A DNA stretch of 41,869 bases. Origin: a virus. The stretch covers positions 1-41,869 of IMG/VR virus record IMGVR_UViG_3300021961_000207. One strand, 5' to 3'. The stretch's first letter is position 1. Each line of letters starts with the position of its first letter. Both the position numbers and the translations under genes were made by a program. Under the pieces are notes generated by a model. That model saw only the letters and a program-made list of their open reading frames with translations. It made no database searches and was not told where the DNA came from. Below are positions 15,071 to 36,094 of the stretch, piece by piece.

Positions 15071-16867
15071 ATGACGACTACTGTTCACGGTATTAAGGTA
15101 GATTTATCTCGAGATTCTTTATTTGATGAGTTGGGGGTAAGAAGACTAAAAGAGTCTTATATGAGAGAAGACGAAGCTTCTCCCCAGGAGAGGTTCGCTT
15201 ATGTTTCAAAAGCTTTTTCATCGAACGATGAACACGCTCAAAGACTTTATGAATATAGTAGCCAGCATTGGTTATCTTATAGTACCCCTATTCTTAGTTT
15301 TGGTCGCAGTAGCCGCGGTCTGCCTATATCTTGTTTTCTCCCTTACCTGGATGACTCTGCAGAGGGTCTGGTCGACACTCTGTCGGAAGTAAACTGGTTA
15401 TCAATGCTTGGCGGCGGTGTTGGTATTGGTATCGGTATTCGCAGTGCCGATGATAAATCCGTTGGTGTAATGCCTCACCTTCGTACATATGACGCCTCTT
15501 CCCTGGCTTATCGCCAAGGGCGAACCCGTAGAGGCTCGTATGCAGCCTATCTTGATATTAGTCATCCCGATATTCTTCTATTCTTAGATATTCGTAAGCC
15601 AACTGGCGACCCGAATATGAGAGCATTAAATCTTCACCACGGTATTAATATTACTGATGATTTTATGCAACTGATTGAAAAATGCATGGTCGATAATACT
15701 ACAGATGATACCTGGAATCTCAAGGATCCTCATTCCGGCGAAGTAAAAGATACTATATCAGCAAAAGAGCTGTGGCAGAGAATACTAGAGATTAGAATGC
15801 AGACCGGTGAACCATATCTGCACTTTATTGATACCTCGAATAATAGTATGCCAGAGTTTCAAAAGAAAATTGGTCTAAGTATACGGCAGTCTAATCTTTG
15901 CAGCGAGATCATCCTACCTACAGATAAAAAGAGAACAGCAGTATGCTGTCTCTCTTCCGTTAATCTAGAGTATTATGATAAGTGGAAAAATAATACTTTA
16001 TTTTTACGTGATGTTGCAGAGATGTTAGATAACGTATTGCAATATTTTATCGACAATTCTCCTTCTGCAGTTAAGAAAGCAAAGTTTTCTGCCACCCGAG
16101 AAAGATCTATCGGTATAGGGGCTTTAGGTTTTCACGCTTATCTACAAAAGAACAACTTACCTTGGGAAAGTGTTGGCGCGAAAAGCGCTAATATAAGAAT
16201 GTTTAAGCATATTAAAACTAAACTAGAAGAAGCAAATCTAGATCTAGGTAAAGAAAGAGGCGAGGCGCCAGATGCTCAAGGCACTGGTCGTAGGTTTAGT
16301 CATATGATGGCTATTGCACCTAACGCCAGCAGCTCCATTATAATGGGTAATACTAGCCCGTCGATTGAACCTTATCGTGCTAATGCGTATAGACAAGATA
16401 CCCTTTCCGGTTCGTTTTTAAATAAAAATCGCTATCTTGATAAGATAATACAAACTAAGTGTAAAGAGAACGAACAAATAGACTATAATGAAATCTGGTC
16501 TAGCATTATTGCGAACGATGGTTCGGTACAGCACTTAGATATCCTAGATGACTGGCAAAAAGATACATACAAGACTAGCATGGAAATCGATCAGCGCTGG
16601 ATTATTGAGCATGCTGCAGATAGGCAAGAATACATCGACCAAGCTCAATCTCTTAACTTATTCTTTAGACCGGATGTTGATGTTAGATACTTACATGCCA
16701 TCCACTACCTAGCCTGGAAGCTTAAATTAAAAACTCTCTACTATTGTCGTTCAGAAAAAATAGGTAAAGCAGATAAGGTAGCTAAGAAGATCGAACGAGA
16801 AGTGATTAAAGAACTTGATATGAAAGCTTTAACAGAAGGCGATACTTGCCTGGCTTGCGAAGGATAA
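15071..16867 (+). CDS. nrdA: class I ribonucleotide reductase, alpha subunit
   Basis: 598 residues. Catalytic residues are present: C88 (LPISCFLP), N275-C277-E279 in SNLCSEI, C292 in VCCLSSVNL, paired Tyr in LKTLYYCRS for radical transfer, and the C-terminal redox pair in TCLACEG (C593, C596). The enzyme reduces ribonucleoside diphosphates to dNDPs. It lacks the ~90-residue N-terminal ATP-cone of E. coli NrdA (761 residues), so it is predicted to escape dATP feedback inhibition. Preceded by GAAGGGTG as ribosome binding site and followed one base later by nrdB. Confidence 0.95.
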   Translation: MTTTVHGIKVDLSRDSLFDELGVRRLKESYMREDEASPQERFAYVSKAFSSNDEHAQRLYEYSSQHWLSYSTPILSFGRSSRGLPISCFLPYLDDSAEGLVDTLSEVNWLSMLGGGVGIGIGIRSADDKSVGVMPHLRTYDASSLAYRQGRTRRGSYAAYLDISHPDILLFLDIRKPTGDPNMRALNLHHGINITDDFMQLIEKCMVDNTTDDTWNLKDPHSGEVKDTISAKELWQRILEIRMQTGEPYLHFIDTSNNSMPEFQKKIGLSIRQSNLCSEIILPTDKKRTAVCCLSSVNLEYYDKWKNNTLFLRDVAEMLDNVLQYFIDNSPSAVKKAKFSATRERSIGIGALGFHAYLQKNNLPWESVGAKSANIRMFKHIKTKLEEANLDLGKERGEAPDAQGTGRRFSHMMAIAPNASSSIIMGNTSPSIEPYRANAYRQDTLSGSFLNKNRYLDKIIQTKCKENEQIDYNEIWSSIIANDGSVQHLDILDDWQKDTYKTSMEIDQRWIIEHAADRQEYIDQAQSLNLFFRPDVDVRYLHAIHYLAWKLKLKTLYYCRSEKIGKADKVAKKIEREVIKELDMKALTEGDTCLACEG

Positions 16868-16868
16868 T

Positions 16869-17852
16869 ATGAAAAAATCTGATTACAGTTTAATGGATGA
16901 AAGATCTTCGTTCAAACCATTTACATACGCATGGGCGTACGATGCCTGGCTAAAGCACGAGCAAAGCCATTGGTTACATACCGAAGTACCTATGCTTGAA
17001 GATATAAAAGACTGGAAGAAGAAACTTACTATTGATGAAAAGAACTTTCTTACTCATATCTTTAGATTCTTTACACAAGGGGATATCGACGTTGCTGGGG
17101 GATATGTAAAGAACTACCTACCCTTCTTCAAGCTGCCTGAGATACGAATGATGTTACTTGGGTTCGCTGCCCGTGAAGCTCTCCATGTAGCCGCTTATTC
17201 TCACCTTATAGAATCTCTAGGACTACCTGATTCAACGTACAATCAATTCCTAGAATACCAAGCGATGAAAGACAAGCATGACTACATTCTTAACCGCTCT
17301 AATGCAGTAACATATCCTGCCACTATTGCAGAGAACATAGCATTGTTTTCTGCGTTTACAGAAGGTATGCAGTTATTTTCATCATTCATTATGCTACTAA
17401 ACTTTCCTCGTAATGGTAAGATGAAAGGAATGGGTCAGATCATCACCTGGTCCATCATCGATGAGACTCAGCACGCTGAGTCAATGATTAAACTATTCCG
17501 AGCATACGTAGAAGAAAATAAAGGTATATGGAACGATGAGTTAAAGAGTAACATATACACCATTGCAGAAAGAATGGTAGAGTTAGAAGACAAGTTTATT
17601 GATCTAGCATTTGAGACAGGAGGTATACAAAACCTATCTGCTGCCGATGTAAAGGAATATATTAGATACATAGCTGATCGTAGACTTATCTCTTTAGGTA
17701 TGAAAGGTATTTTCAAGCGTAAGAAAAACCCTCTACCTTGGGTTGAAGAGATGATTAATGCTCCTACACACACTAACTTTTTTGAAAATCGTGCAACCGA
17801 TTACGCGAAAGGCGCCCTGTCTGGTTCCTGGGATTCGGTCTGGGCATCATGA
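16869..17852 (+). CDS. nrdB: class I ribonucleotide reductase, beta subunit
   Basis: 327 residues. Diiron ligands and the radical tyrosine are visible: an Asp in QGDIDVAGG (72 or 74), E103-H106 in REALHVAAY with Y110 at the E. coli Y122 spacing, Glu in FTEGMQLF, and E/H in IIDETQHAES. It makes and holds the tyrosyl radical used by NrdA. The sequence style (DIDVAGGYVKNYLP) is that of marine T4-like phages. It begins one base after nrdA and overlaps the deaminase gene by 4 bases, giving a dNTP-synthesis operon. Confidence 0.95.
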   Translation: MKKSDYSLMDERSSFKPFTYAWAYDAWLKHEQSHWLHTEVPMLEDIKDWKKKLTIDEKNFLTHIFRFFTQGDIDVAGGYVKNYLPFFKLPEIRMMLLGFAAREALHVAAYSHLIESLGLPDSTYNQFLEYQAMKDKHDYILNRSNAVTYPATIAENIALFSAFTEGMQLFSSFIMLLNFPRNGKMKGMGQIITWSIIDETQHAESMIKLFRAYVEENKGIWNDELKSNIYTIAERMVELEDKFIDLAFETGGIQNLSAADVKEYIRYIADRRLISLGMKGIFKRKKNPLPWVEEMINAPTHTNFFENRATDYAKGALSGSWDSVWAS

Positions 17853-27863: not shown

Positions 27864-29343
27864 ATAGGATACCGACAAGAGGTGAGATATTGTTTCTAGG
27901 GGTCGAGGATGACCCACCGCTATAAGAACTGTTATTTACATTAGTGTTATTATTAATCACTGGCATATTAATCTGATTAATACTAGACGTCTTATTCGCG
28001 AGATTGTAATTATTATTTTGATCCATCTGTTCTAGTAGCTGATTGGAGGTAGTTTCAGGAGCAGCTCGAATTACCTGCCCTGAATAAACCCTTTGACCTG
28101 GTACACCATATACCACGCCCGGCTCTGCACTGTTCTCTATACCCGATGTCGGTGGAGTACTCGGGAGAGGGGTCATAGCTGAACTATCTGAAGGACCCCC
28201 AATTTTAAAATCAAGCCAGGAGGGTAGTCCTATTTTTTCTTTGGGTGTATACGTACTTAAATCTGTATTTAAGAATTCTTGCGGTATGCCTTGAAGAGAG
28301 GTTTCGATAAATTTATCAAACTCCTCTTGCTGTACAGGGTCCTGCATTTCAGGTCTTTTCTTATATTCTTGAGCTTCATATCTAATTTGATTAACACGAT
28401 TCTGAATCTCAGCCCGGTCATCAGGCAATAAATTATTAAGATTATTCGGAATATCACCCTTTATATCCTGTATTGCATTATTAAAATAACCGTAACTTTG
28501 AATGCGAGCTTGATCTACAGCAGCTTGATCTCGGGCTTCTGCGCCTCCTCTAAAAAAATCTGCAATACCACCAAATACTTCTCTAAAAAAATCTAAAACA
28601 TCTGTAGCCCATCCTTTAATAACATCATATGCCTTTCCTAACTTCTCGAATGCTGATTTTACTAATTCAGAATCTAGAAAACTTCCTAAAATCCCACCCA
28701 GTACACCAAATAAACTTGAATCAGTATTTTCTTTCTTTTTACTTTGTTTTTTATCTTCATCTTCTCTACTAATATCTGCTTCGGTATTATCTAAAGAACC
28801 ATTCAGTATACCGGTAAGAAGCTGATTACTTGTTTCAATTAATCCTACTAACTTAGTAATACCTTCTGCTTGCTCTTCATCAGCAGAAACTACATTATCT
28901 GCTTCCGGGTTAGCAGCAGCATTAGGGTTTGCAGTGAGTATTGCGTTTCTACTATCAAAAAGCTCTTTAATATTATTAAATATATCTAAAGTGGATCTAT
29001 ACCAGTCCTCAATAACGTTAAGTGCGTCTACTGCCCATTCTTGTACAACATCATATACATTTCCTAACTTCTCGAATGCTGTTCTTATTAGTTCAGAATC
29101 AAGAAAACTAGTAAGTAAATTAGATATATTTTGTTCATCTAAATTTTCTTTTTCCAATATACCGTCAGTAATAGATTGTACGTTTAAAGAAATATTTTCT
29201 AAACTAGCGTTCTGTGATATAAAAGAATCCGCTATCTCTCTGAGAATAACAGTGCTATCGAAGCCATCTCCCAGCGAATGATCGGAGGGGTCTTCAGAAT
29301 TCTGTTGTTTGAAGTCGTCGATAATATCTTGTAAAGTTTCCAT
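27862..29343 (-). CDS. 29: tail tape measure / hub protein, gp29-like
   Basis: 493 residues (T4 gp29 is 590), largely helical. A duplicated segment SFLDSEL..AFEKLG..YDV...WA.D occurs at 79-114 and 221-256. The C-terminus is Asn/Ser-rich (INQINMPVINNNTNVNNSSY) as in tape measures of marine T4-like phages. It would set tail length and ride in the tube. It lies directly downstream of the chaperone-like pair, the usual position for a tape measure. The start overlaps the upstream stop by 1 base (TAATG). Identification is by position and composition more than by motif. Confidence 0.7.
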   Translation of the reverse strand: METLQDIIDDFKQQNSEDPSDHSLGDGFDSTVILREIADSFISQNASLENISLNVQSITDGILEKENLDEQNISNLLTSFLDSELIRTAFEKLGNVYDVVQEWAVDALNVIEDWYRSTLDIFNNIKELFDSRNAILTANPNAAANPEADNVVSADEEQAEGITKLVGLIETSNQLLTGILNGSLDNTEADISREDEDKKQSKKKENTDSSLFGVLGGILGSFLDSELVKSAFEKLGKAYDVIKGWATDVLDFFREVFGGIADFFRGGAEARDQAAVDQARIQSYGYFNNAIQDIKGDIPNNLNNLLPDDRAEIQNRVNQIRYEAQEYKKRPEMQDPVQQEEFDKFIETSLQGIPQEFLNTDLSTYTPKEKIGLPSWLDFKIGGPSDSSAMTPLPSTPPTSGIENSAEPGVVYGVPGQRVYSGQVIRAAPETTSNQLLEQMDQNNNYNLANKTSSINQINMPVINNNTNVNNSSYSGGSSSTPRNNISPLVGIL

Positions 29344-29516
29344 TAGCTATTCTTTAGGTTTTGATTTAGGGCCTTAATCTTTTCGTTTTCTTTTTTTATA
29401 AAGTCGGTTAGCATAGCTACGTAAATTTCCCTTTCCCACGGTATCATATCTTCTAGTTCTGTTAATGAATATTTGTGATGCTGCATTAACGAAAAATTCA
29501 ACACGTAATAATTCAT
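29343..29516 (-). CDS. tail-assembly chaperone downstream ORF (gp51 / T-like)
   Basis: 57 residues from ATG: MNYYVLNFSLMQHHKYSLTE then LEDMIPWEREIYVAMLTDF. The aromatic start and MIPWERE helix are typical of the small ORF before the tape measure in marine T4-like phages and resemble the T part of G/GT chaperones. It lies in the -1 frame of the gp26-like gene, open from its last codons, so it may be made as a gp26 fusion by frameshifting, by its own ATG, or both. No ribosome binding site is seen before the ATG. Confidence 0.65.
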   Translation of the reverse strand: MNYYVLNFSLMQHHKYSLTELEDMIPWEREIYVAMLTDFIKKENEKIKALNQNLKNS

Positions 29517-29536
29517 TAAATTACTATGAGAAAGGC

Positions 29537-30247
29537 TTAGACGAAAAAATTTCCAATACCTTCTATTTTTTTATTAATTGGCTTATTACAAACTCCGCAT
29601 TGTACATGTATTTCTTGCACTACCCTAGGTGATGATTTAAAAAATAATTCGAGTTTTTTAAATTGATTTTGATTTAAAGAAAGAACAAATTCTTCTTTTT
29701 CTTTCTTAGTAATATCTTCTCCACCCCAGTACGAGGATCCATCTTTCTTGTATATGCCTTTTATATTGTTACAAATAAGATTTATAATACCATCTACAAC
29801 CTTAGTTTTTTTATTACCATATACGTTAAAAACATCTTCAATTTTTGGGTACATCATTTCTATACCGTAATCATTATTAAGATCTATCATATTCGTATGT
29901 TCTGGGTCTTTTACAATCTTAACATCATCGATGTTGTATTTTGTTGGTATCTTATTACCACAATCGCAAGTTACCTGTACCTCTACTATCTCACCGATTG
30001 ATCTTGATCTAAGCATTAGAAAAATATACTCTATATCAAAATGAGTTAGATCTTTTGTATTCAGTTTATTAAAAGTACATGTAGAAATAACTTCTTTAAT
30101 AATTCTCGAAATCTCGTCGTTGCTAGCTTCAATCATTGTTAAAAGAACTTTATATTCTTTAACAAGAAAAGGTCTGTATTTAATTGTTTCGTTTGTGGAT
30201 GGTATATTCAACTCATAGACGGGAGTCTGAAGTACTGGTAATGACAT
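29537..30247 (-). CDS. 26: baseplate hub assembly protein, gp26-like
   Basis: 236 residues. The start (LPVLQTPVYELNIPSTNETI then YRPFLVKEYKVLL) matches the T4 gp26/gp51 baseplate family. Two Cys pairs, CDCG (about 112-115) and CGVC (near 220), form a likely zinc site. In T4 the protein takes part in hub assembly. It sits between gp48 and the tape measure; by position it also equals the G-type tail chaperone of other phages. Two codons before its stop is a slippery heptamer with an open -1 frame into the next ORF. Confidence 0.8.
   Translation of the reverse strand: MSLPVLQTPVYELNIPSTNETIKYRPFLVKEYKVLLTMIEASNDEISRIIKEVISTCTFNKLNTKDLTHFDIEYIFLMLRSRSIGEIVEVQVTCDCGNKIPTKYNIDDVKIVKDPEHTNMIDLNNDYGIEMMYPKIEDVFNVYGNKKTKVVDGIINLICNNIKGIYKKDGSSYWGGEDITKKEKEEFVLSLNQNQFKKLELFFKSSPRVVQEIHVQCGVCNKPINKKIEGIGNFFV
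29546..29552 (-). promoter_or_regulatory. candidate -1 ribosomal frameshift site
   Basis: On the minus strand, A AAT TTT (then TTC GTC TAA) is an X-XXY-YYZ heptamer in the reading phase of the gp26-like gene, two codons before its stop. After a -1 slip, translation reads FRLSLSHSNL and continues into MNYYV without a stop. Confidence 0.55.
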
Positions 30248-33648: not shown

Positions 33649-34988
33649 TGTCTAACGAATTTATCACACACGCTGGTGCGGTGCTAATTGAAGATATTGC
33701 TGTTATAAGCAGTAGTGGTGGTTTAATAAGTCTAAAAGACTTTCTTGTTGAATTAAATTTATATGAGGATATTTTTTCTAATTTCATCACGGGTAATATA
33801 GCCCTTACAGATAGTAGGAATCTTGTAGAACTTCTTAATCTAAAAGGTGAAGAGATATTACTCGTTAAATTTAAGACCCCTTCTTTTCCAACCAGTATAT
33901 CTAAAGCATTTAGAGTATACCGAATAAGCGATCGATCTATAGCTTTAGATACTAGTACTCAAATTTTTGTAATGCATTTTACATCTCTGGAATTTATATA
34001 CGACATTACCCTACCTCTTTTTCTTCCTTTTGAGGGGGATATTAAAAATATAGTAACTAATATTTTTAATAATTTTATTTCAACAGAAAGAGAATATACT
34101 GCGGAAGAAGGTTCTTACTTAACAGGAACAAATAAATCAACTATATCATTTATTGGGGAGACCTCTAATAAAGTAAAATTTGTTTCTCCTGGGTGGCTTC
34201 CTTCGAAATGCATAAACTGGCTTGCTACAAAAGCTATACCTAAAGATTATGTTGCTAAGAGTTTTTTATTTTTCGAAACCAGCCAAAGATTTTGTTTTGC
34301 CTGTGTAGAAGCTTTGCTTAAAAATATAAAACAACTTTCCATAGGTAAGTATACTGTTGGTGCATCTAATATAGCGGTAGATTCGTCTAATCCTGATGCC
34401 TCTAGTATTAACCGAGAATATTTTCTTGCCAAAAATTTTAAAATAATAGAAAACGTAGATAATGTTAAGAACATAAGTAATGGGTATCTAGCAAATAGAC
34501 TTATAACCCTTGATTTTCATAATAAAAAATATACTGTAACAGACTATGATTACGTTTCAGAATATAAAAAACAGTTCCATACTACAGGGGAGAACAATAA
34601 GAGTATACCGGTGTTCTCTTCAAATATAATGAGAAACCCTGCTGCTAAAACATCTTTTTACCCAGTTAATCCTCGCCTATACGATAATACAACAGAAAAT
34701 TTTAGTGATGTTATTACCGCTATTCATGGTAATAGAAGATCTAGTTTATTAGATATAGATAATATAAAAGCAAATTTGGTAGTACCGGGTCGAACTGACG
34801 TTGAGGTAGGTACATCGTTGTATCTTTCTTACCCGGTTCTCGGTGGAGGCGATAGAACTAATAACGGGGTTACAGAGGATGTAATTTATTCTGGATACTA
34901 TCTTATTACTGCTATACACCATACCGTCACTTTAAAATCTCATTATATGACAATGGAAATTGTTAAAGATTCCTTAGGTGTATTATGA
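33648..34988 (+). CDS. 27: baseplate hub protein, gp27-like
   Basis: 446 residues (T4 gp27 is 391). LNLYEDIFSNFITGNIALTD then SRNLVELLNLKGEEILLVKF and FRVYRISDRS show the start of the gp27 hub fold (tube-like domains). The C-terminal NLVVPGRTDVEVGTSLYLSY and YLITAIHHTV are typical of hub proteins. A trimer would join the hexameric tube to the trimeric spike. It overlaps the spike gene by 4 bases. Confidence 0.8.
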   Translation: MSNEFITHAGAVLIEDIAVISSSGGLISLKDFLVELNLYEDIFSNFITGNIALTDSRNLVELLNLKGEEILLVKFKTPSFPTSISKAFRVYRISDRSIALDTSTQIFVMHFTSLEFIYDITLPLFLPFEGDIKNIVTNIFNNFISTEREYTAEEGSYLTGTNKSTISFIGETSNKVKFVSPGWLPSKCINWLATKAIPKDYVAKSFLFFETSQRFCFACVEALLKNIKQLSIGKYTVGASNIAVDSSNPDASSINREYFLAKNFKIIENVDNVKNISNGYLANRLITLDFHNKKYTVTDYDYVSEYKKQFHTTGENNKSIPVFSSNIMRNPAAKTSFYPVNPRLYDNTTENFSDVITAIHGNRRSSLLDIDNIKANLVVPGRTDVEVGTSLYLSYPVLGGGDRTNNGVTEDVIYSGYYLITAIHHTVTLKSHYMTMEIVKDSLGVL

Positions 34989-36094
34989 TACAAAATATTT
35001 TTAATAAAGACGGTTTTGTGTGGTGGGTTGGGGTCGTAGAGGACAGATACGACCCGGAAAAATTAGGTCGCTGTAAGGTAAGAATATTCGGTTACCATAC
35101 CGAGAATAAGACCTTACTACCTACATACGACCTCCCCTGGTGTATACCTATCCAACCAATAACGTCTGCTGCTATTTCAGGTATAGGTATTTCTCCTCTT
35201 GGTCCTGTAGAAGGTACCTGGGTTGTCGGCTTCTTTCTCGACGGTGCCGATGGTCAGCAACCAGCAATGTTTGGTACAATTGCTTCTAAGATACCTGGTA
35301 CAGCGGTCGCATTCCCAGCCCCAGCATCACGTCAGCAGGTCAGTAATGCTGATACAGGGGTACTTATCGATGAGAACACCAATGAAGCAGTAACGGATGA
35401 AGATGATGTACCTGTGCCTGCAGCTACTACACCGGTAGACGGATGGGTACTTGGTCAAACTTCTAAGCAATATGAGTCGGGTAATAGAGGTCCTTCTGCT
35501 ATTAATGATTATAGAGGAGGTGCAGGAAATGACCCAGGCGGTGCATCATATGGTACATATCAGCTGGTTTCGTATCAACCCGCTATAATGAAAAGCGGAA
35601 AATCAAGAAGAACAGCTCACTTCCCGCCTGTTGTTCAATTTCTTAATTGGAGTTCATTTAAAGATAAATTTAAATCTCTTGCCCCTGGTACCCCGGCATT
35701 CGATGCTAAGTGGAGAGAAATTGCAGCTGAATATGGTACACAGTTTGAAACTGAACAGTATAACTTTATAAAAGAAACTTACTATTCAGTTCTGCTTTCT
35801 AATTTACAAAGACAGGGTTGTGATCTTTCTAGGCGTGGTCCCGGCGTACAAGATCTGATCTGGTCGACTGCAGTTCAGTATGGTCCCGGTTCTAGCGCTG
35901 TAAGTATTTTTTTAAATCCGCTTAAAAATAAAACAAATCTTTCAGATTCAGATATAATTAGATTGGTAAGTGCATATAAAGTGTCGTCAGTATCTACGCA
36001 CTTTGCGTCTAGTTCCGCTGATTTAAGAAATAGTGTTAAAAATCGATTTAGTTCTGAAGAAAGCAGTCTATTAAACTTGGTAACAACAGCGTAA
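34985..36094 (+). CDS. 5: baseplate hub OB-fold protein with lysozyme-like domain (N-terminal gp5 equivalent)
   Basis: 369 residues. Residues 1-105 form the gp5 N-terminal OB-fold (WWVGVVEDRYDPEKLGRCKV, then GTWVVGFFLDGADGQQPAMF). A linker (110-155) leads to a second domain with YESGNRGPSA (E164), GGASYGTYQL and QDLIWSTAVQYGP, resembling lytic transglycosylase/lysozyme-like domains of baseplates. There is no beta-helix here; it is encoded by the next gene. The enzyme would cut peptidoglycan during tail penetration. Catalytic assignment of E164 is inference. Confidence 0.75.
   Translation: MIQNIFNKDGFVWWVGVVEDRYDPEKLGRCKVRIFGYHTENKTLLPTYDLPWCIPIQPITSAAISGIGISPLGPVEGTWVVGFFLDGADGQQPAMFGTIASKIPGTAVAFPAPASRQQVSNADTGVLIDENTNEAVTDEDDVPVPAATTPVDGWVLGQTSKQYESGNRGPSAINDYRGGAGNDPGGASYGTYQLVSYQPAIMKSGKSRRTAHFPPVVQFLNWSSFKDKFKSLAPGTPAFDAKWREIAAEYGTQFETEQYNFIKETYYSVLLSNLQRQGCDLSRRGPGVQDLIWSTAVQYGPGSSAVSIFLNPLKNKTNLSDSDIIRLVSAYKVSSVSTHFASSSADLRNSVKNRFSSEESSLLNLVTTA

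Follow-up and report, generated by a model that had tools for sequence, protein, structure and literature searches.

The gp26-like locus of an uncultured T4-like virus in all likelihood encodes a tail assembly chaperone (TAC) in two forms, the longer of which would arise by a programmed −1 frameshift. Comparison with related loci indicates that the frameshift is real and very probably functional, and that it is widely conserved in T4-like phages outside the group of T4 itself. The locus lies in the window analysed here, which is a stretch of 41,869 nucleotides (IMG/VR record IMGVR_UViG_3300021961_000207). According to the proposed mechanism, most ribosomes would end at the gp26 stop codon and release a short form of 236 amino acids. 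A minority would step back one base at U UUU UUC, where both tRNA-Phe, paired with UUU and UUC, would re-pair with UUU and UUU and continue in the −1 frame to give a long form of 301 amino acids. The long form would carry a C-terminal extension, homologous to the end of T4 gp51, and, by analogy with lambda G and GT, the short and long forms together would hold the tape measure during assembly of the tail tube. A useful frameshift rate, the production of both forms and the identity of their binding partners are inferred.

The gp26-like gene matches PF12322 (T4_baseplate) in Pfam (E = 1.1e-54, 185.9 bits, cut-off 24.5) and phrog_150 (baseplate hub) in PHROG (E = 1.4e-58). Its 3′ end reads GGA AAT TTT TTC GTC TAA on the minus strand (29554–29537) with A AAT TTT in phase, exactly as a preliminary description of this DNA had it, and a slip at either A AAT TTT or T TTT TTC gives the same product, N F F R L S L S H S N L M N Y Y... 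(Table 1). The same description had the −1 frame open through a 57-residue open reading frame (ORF) as far as the first base of the next ORF, and had predicted a fusion of about 301 residues. Both statements are confirmed: the −1 frame ends at TAA 29345–29343, which overlaps the start codon of the ORF that follows (ATG, 29343) by one base, and the 235 residues through FF and the 66 that follow make 301. Read from the heptamer, the −1 peptide has a match to phrog_634 (baseplate hub assembly catalyst; E = 6e-27) and another to the last part of phrog_150 (E = 1.2e-5), and the matches to these two families span the frameshift junction. Because the phrog_634 alignment runs from residue 2, the homology begins ahead of the ATG of the 57-residue ORF, which is codon 10 of the −1 extension and residue 12 of the query peptide. 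In a single genome, about ten open codons and an agreement of frame would carry little weight; across relatives, the pattern lies far beyond chance.

Table 1. Positions of the features of the gp26-like locus within the window.
Feature	Position	Strand	Basis or remark
gp26-like gene, 236 aa, predicted short form (TAC-N)	30247–29537	minus	PF12322, phrog_150, AlphaFold2 model
Shine-Dalgarno-like GAAGGT, possible stimulator	29558–29563	minus	GG to heptamer 9 nt; weak bias in the window's group
Overlapping heptamer A AAT TTT, in phase, not conserved	29552–29546	minus	14/134 dereplicated loci
Slippery heptamer T TTT TTC (U UUU UUC), in phase, conserved slip site	29549–29543	minus	relatives
−1 frame extension (TAC-C), 66 codons after heptamer and stop	29543–29343	minus	phrog_634, conserved residues
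57-aa ORF with ATG, inside the −1 extension	29516–29343	minus	ORF finders
Predicted long form (TAC-NC), 301 aa, via −1 frameshift at 29549–29543	30247–29343	minus	translation
493-aa ORF in tape-measure position	29343–27862	minus	position only

Relatives were collected from IMG/VR loci and named phages with single-protein queries, and the best 80 matches were kept per query; T4 gp51 and KVP40 gp26 gave few loci when used as queries (10 and 2, respectively). The heptamer count covers 257 loci in which gp26 was matched, near-identical copies among them, and excludes the T4-type loci (L084 and L096–L105). An in-phase TTTTTTN stands shortly ahead of the gp26 stop in 256 of the 257. In the single locus that lacks it, L062, the gp26 frame is cut short by an early stop near a contig end; this locus was excluded from later counts, and the demand for a heptamer in the choice of loci cost this one locus only. 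Dereplication by shared 8-mers left 134 loci, among which relatedness remains, and the counts are not of independent events because the sequences counted share ancestry. The heptamer is TTTTTTC in 115 of these loci, TTTTTTT in 18 and TTTTTTG in 1, and every one of the 134 has T as the base ahead of the Phe pair, although the codon that this base ends varies (AAT, AGT, GAT, TCT or GCT). As an internal control, TTTTTTN occurs at 9 of 134 Phe-Phe pairs elsewhere in these genes, a total that equals the number of loci by coincidence and a control that shares ancestry with the slip sites. Measured from where the first Phe codon begins, the gp26 stop lies 6, 9, 12 or 30 nt downstream (14, 107, 1 and 12 loci, respectively), and the heptamer stays fixed while the position of the stop shifts. 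These comparisons show that the slip site is under selection across the relatives. In the Mosig-like locus L002 and 15 other Mosig-like loci (16 of 256), the distance from the first base of the first Phe codon to the gp26 stop is 30 nt and not 9 as in most loci, which makes the predicted short form 7 residues longer than usual.

The conserved slip site is T TTT TTC and not A AAT TTT. An in-phase heptamer had been correctly noted in the preliminary description; the one it chose was A AAT TTT, and T TTT TTC went unnamed. Slippage through A AAT TTT, which would be a refinement of the same mechanism and not an exclusive rival to it, would yield the same product in the window, where this heptamer is in phase, but it is in phase in 14 of the 134 dereplicated loci as against 134 of 134 for TTTTTTN, and we regard it as improbable.

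Elements that could stimulate a slip at T TTT TTC differ among lineages. RNA stability was assessed with a synonymous-shuffle test on the 47 nt after the heptamer in 132 of the 134 loci, two being too short. The stability of this segment is above expectation (mean z = −1.72, n = 132; 56 loci at p ≤ 0.05), with mean z values of −0.28 to −0.62 in the control windows, and a sliding scan of 60 sampled loci places the peak of stability in the windows 0–50 and 10–60 nt past the slip. P-SSM2-like relatives have a stem-loop that begins to pair about 5 nt past the heptamer (33 of 42 at p ≤ 0.05, mean z = −3.16) and Mosig-like relatives give a moderate structure signal (15 of 40, mean z = −1.51). The signal is absent from the group to which the window belongs (mean z = −0.47, p ≤ 0.05 in 4 of 35; z = −0.91 for the window itself), and two Rhizobium/Agrobacterium-type loci, nearest to Atu_ph04, deviate in the opposite direction (mean z = +1.09). 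RNAalifold found a consensus structure neither in the P-SSM2-like alignment (A2, 39 sequences) nor in that of the window's group (A3, 34 sequences), because individual stems lie in different registers. Upstream, a Shine-Dalgarno-like GAAGG or GAGGG occurs about 10 nt ahead of the heptamer in loci of the window's group and in P-SSM2-like loci. The bias in Shine-Dalgarno duplex energy is weak in the former (mean z = −0.38, control −0.02) and stronger in the latter (mean z = −1.47, control 0.08). In P-SSM2-like loci, the Glu codon at this site is GAG in 37, GAA in 6 and replaced by CAA in 1, compared with 351 GAG and 714 GAA gene-wide.

These elements also bear on whether the change of frame could take place in the mRNA, with RNA polymerase slipping on the T run to produce a mixed pool of transcripts. 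A run of at least six T, extended to TTTTTTT in 18 of the 134 loci, would suit such slippage, but it does not account for the retention of TTTTTTC in X XXY YYZ phase in 115 of 134, nor for the stem-loop about 5 nt downstream and the Shine-Dalgarno-like bias upstream that some relatives have, as at ribosomal frameshift sites. We consider polymerase slippage slightly less probable still than a slip through A AAT TTT.

Beyond the heptamer, the −1 ORF continues for 57–69 codons in all 245 of the 256 loci in which its end is visible; in the remaining 11 it runs off the contig. The +1 frame is open for at least 45 codons in 1 of the 134 dereplicated loci. The comparison of relatives, named in the preliminary description as one of the checks on its proposal, comes out in its favour for both an in-phase heptamer and the open −1 frame. 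Residues that precede the ATG of the window, or any ATG, are conserved (L9 in 129 of 134, N16 in 129 of 132 and F17 in 129 of 131). The third −1 codon position holds 47% of the differences in codons 1–10, as compared with 53% in codons 18–30 and 42% over the final 15 codons of gp26. A tblastn search with the −1 peptide matched 577 GenBank phage records, and the 60 matches listed all begin at query residues 1–5. Conservation of the protein crosses the junction, and from the slip site onward the −1 frame is open and subject to selection at the protein level. The least probable of the alternatives is that the gp51-like ORF is a separate gene, read from an ATG of its own (29516) or through reinitiation once gp26 has terminated, and never fused: an in-frame ATG is present in the window and within the first 17 codons in 45 of 131 dereplicated loci (three with fewer than 17 visible codons were excluded), and gp51 is annotated apart in 9 of the 14 frameshift-type records viewed, but separate initiation does not explain the locus, since conservation starts at the heptamer and not at the ATG, these codons are without ATG in 86 of the 131 loci and without ATG, GTG or TTG in 70, and the tblastn matches listed start at residues 1–5, and it would leave the heptamer without a reason to be kept.

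T4 genes 26 and 51 reportedly encode the short and the long chaperone separately, and frameshifting is said by Vladimirov and colleagues (2022) to have been kept in several T4-like groups. In our searches, T4 gp26 (208 aa) and gp51 (249 aa) each match PF12322, and gp51 matches phrog_150 nearly end to end and phrog_634 at its C terminus. On the basis of these matches, T4 gp51 is the counterpart of the long frameshifted form and T4 gp26 that of the short form. The gp26-like gene of the window belongs with T4-like gp26/gp51, with PF12322 above its cut-off together with the phrog_150 and phrog_634 matches. The two systems share PF12322, and T4 gp51 combines a gp26-like domain with the same kind of C-terminal extension; they differ in that T4 gp26 and gp51 are separate, divergently transcribed genes and the end of T4 gp26 is without a slip site. 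Whole records sort accordingly: PF12322 is found in one gene in 17 of 17 frameshift-type records and in two genes in 7 of 7 T4-type records, and none of the seven T4-type gp26 genes has a slippery heptamer at its end. In one T4-type genome (G008, contig 2974754850, locus L104, 3001–3741), gene 51 is split over two frames with PF12322 in two pieces, through either decay or sequencing error. Leiman et al. 2010 (PMC3004832) class T4 gp26 and gp51 as chaperones of hub assembly, and the word ‘frameshift’ does not occur in the available text of that paper.

AlphaFold2 was run on the window protein and on 48 of 119 eligible locus proteins. The model of the window's gp26 (mean pLDDT 92.5) has as its nearest fold 3fgx, an uncharacterised protein (Z = 7.8, 85 aligned, 3.9 Å, residues 5–93), followed by the HK97 TAC 2ob9 (Z = 7.3, 83 aligned, 4.0 Å, residues 1–84); the next neighbour has a Z of 4.7. 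Foldseek gave no significant E-values for this model, with 2ob9 at E = 5.3, and no TAC is among the structural neighbours listed for a T4-type gp51 model (best Z = 4.7). No solved structure is related by sequence at E ≤ 0.001, the better of two matches (0.044) being unrelated by name. The window's model fits a chaperone fold, at Z-scores that are below the safe level.

The ORF that follows had been called the tape measure. Its position agrees with that assignment, and its sequence of 493 amino acids has no match in Pfam and none to a tape-measure PHROG. It directly follows the −1 extension in the window; some relatives have a smaller ORF at that place. None of the other loci collected matched the 493-residue ORF at E ≤ 1e-3, copies from the same virus being set apart. 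The ORF is whole in the window and in L005; L004 3905–5382 aligns to it in two frames (residues 1–47 and 48–493), pointing to a probable small length difference in this region. By eye, an imperfect internal repeat can be seen in the protein (FLDSELIRTAFEKLGNVYDVVQEWAVDAL / FLDSELVKSAFEKLGKAYDVIKGWATDVL). Elsewhere in the window, genes for the large and small subunits of ribonucleotide reductase adjoin each other (15071–17852), and a gp5-like spike gene (34985–36094) combines a Gp5 OB domain with a C-terminal T6SS VgrG3-like domain (PF21277, E = 8.2e-50).

A tentative reading of the lineage differences, which we put forward as possible and do not favour over its negation, is that the slip is old and frozen in T4-like phages while its boosters turn over, so that the ratio of short to long form would be set by lineage, and that duplication replaced the slip on the T4 branch. 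On the same reading, P-SSM2-like phages would rely on a stem-loop of shifting register and a strong Shine-Dalgarno-like site, and the window's group on U UUU UUC with little besides a weak Shine-Dalgarno-like site.

In lambda, ribosomes change to the −1 frame at the 3′ end of a gene that precedes the tape measure, which yields gpG as the short form and gpGT as the long one; the slip site there is G GGA AAG. The gpG/gpGT system is reportedly the subject of work by Levin and colleagues in 1993 and Xu and colleagues in 2004. The locus in the window has the same predicted layout of a short and a long form and differs from lambda in its slip site, T TTT TTC. The proposal of a lambda-like pair made from gp26 by frameshifting, put forward in the preliminary description, is strongly supported by the comparison of relatives; its belief that nothing of the kind had been described for T4-like gp26/gp51 was mistaken. 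Tail assembly chaperones of T4-like phages are the subject of Vladimirov, Gautam and Davidson 2022 (Virology 566:9–15), as represented in papers that cite it: the TAC-N genes of T4-like phages are known to contain poly-T −1 signals (PMC12846349), and some T4-like phages instead have a short gene together with a long, fused one (PRFect, PMC10885494). Given these statements, the mechanism belongs to a known kind, and the earlier claim of novelty falls. The chaperones treated there likewise comprise a short and a long form, and the window differs in being a further, uncultured virus. In the Vandenendeviridae/Andersonviridae, the available text on phage Adele (PMC12846349) proposes a conserved −1 frameshift at the 3′ end of TAC-N, with a −1 frame that is open in every genome examined there and a downstream piece that is routinely annotated as a separate gene; these are other phage families, and the motif is GTTTTT. 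None of the 14 frameshift-type records that we viewed has a joined gene, and the C-terminal part is unannotated in 5, so the long chaperone is likely to be missing from many annotated T4-like genomes. What is added here, possibly with overlap with Vladimirov et al., is an uncultured virus as a member, the identity of the T TTT TTC site and its fixity in 134 dereplicated loci against an internal control, the moving stop and the lineage-dependent stem-loops. Slip and duplication are two routes to one protein pair, cleanly sorted among 24 records, and they offer a testable case of one route replacing the other.
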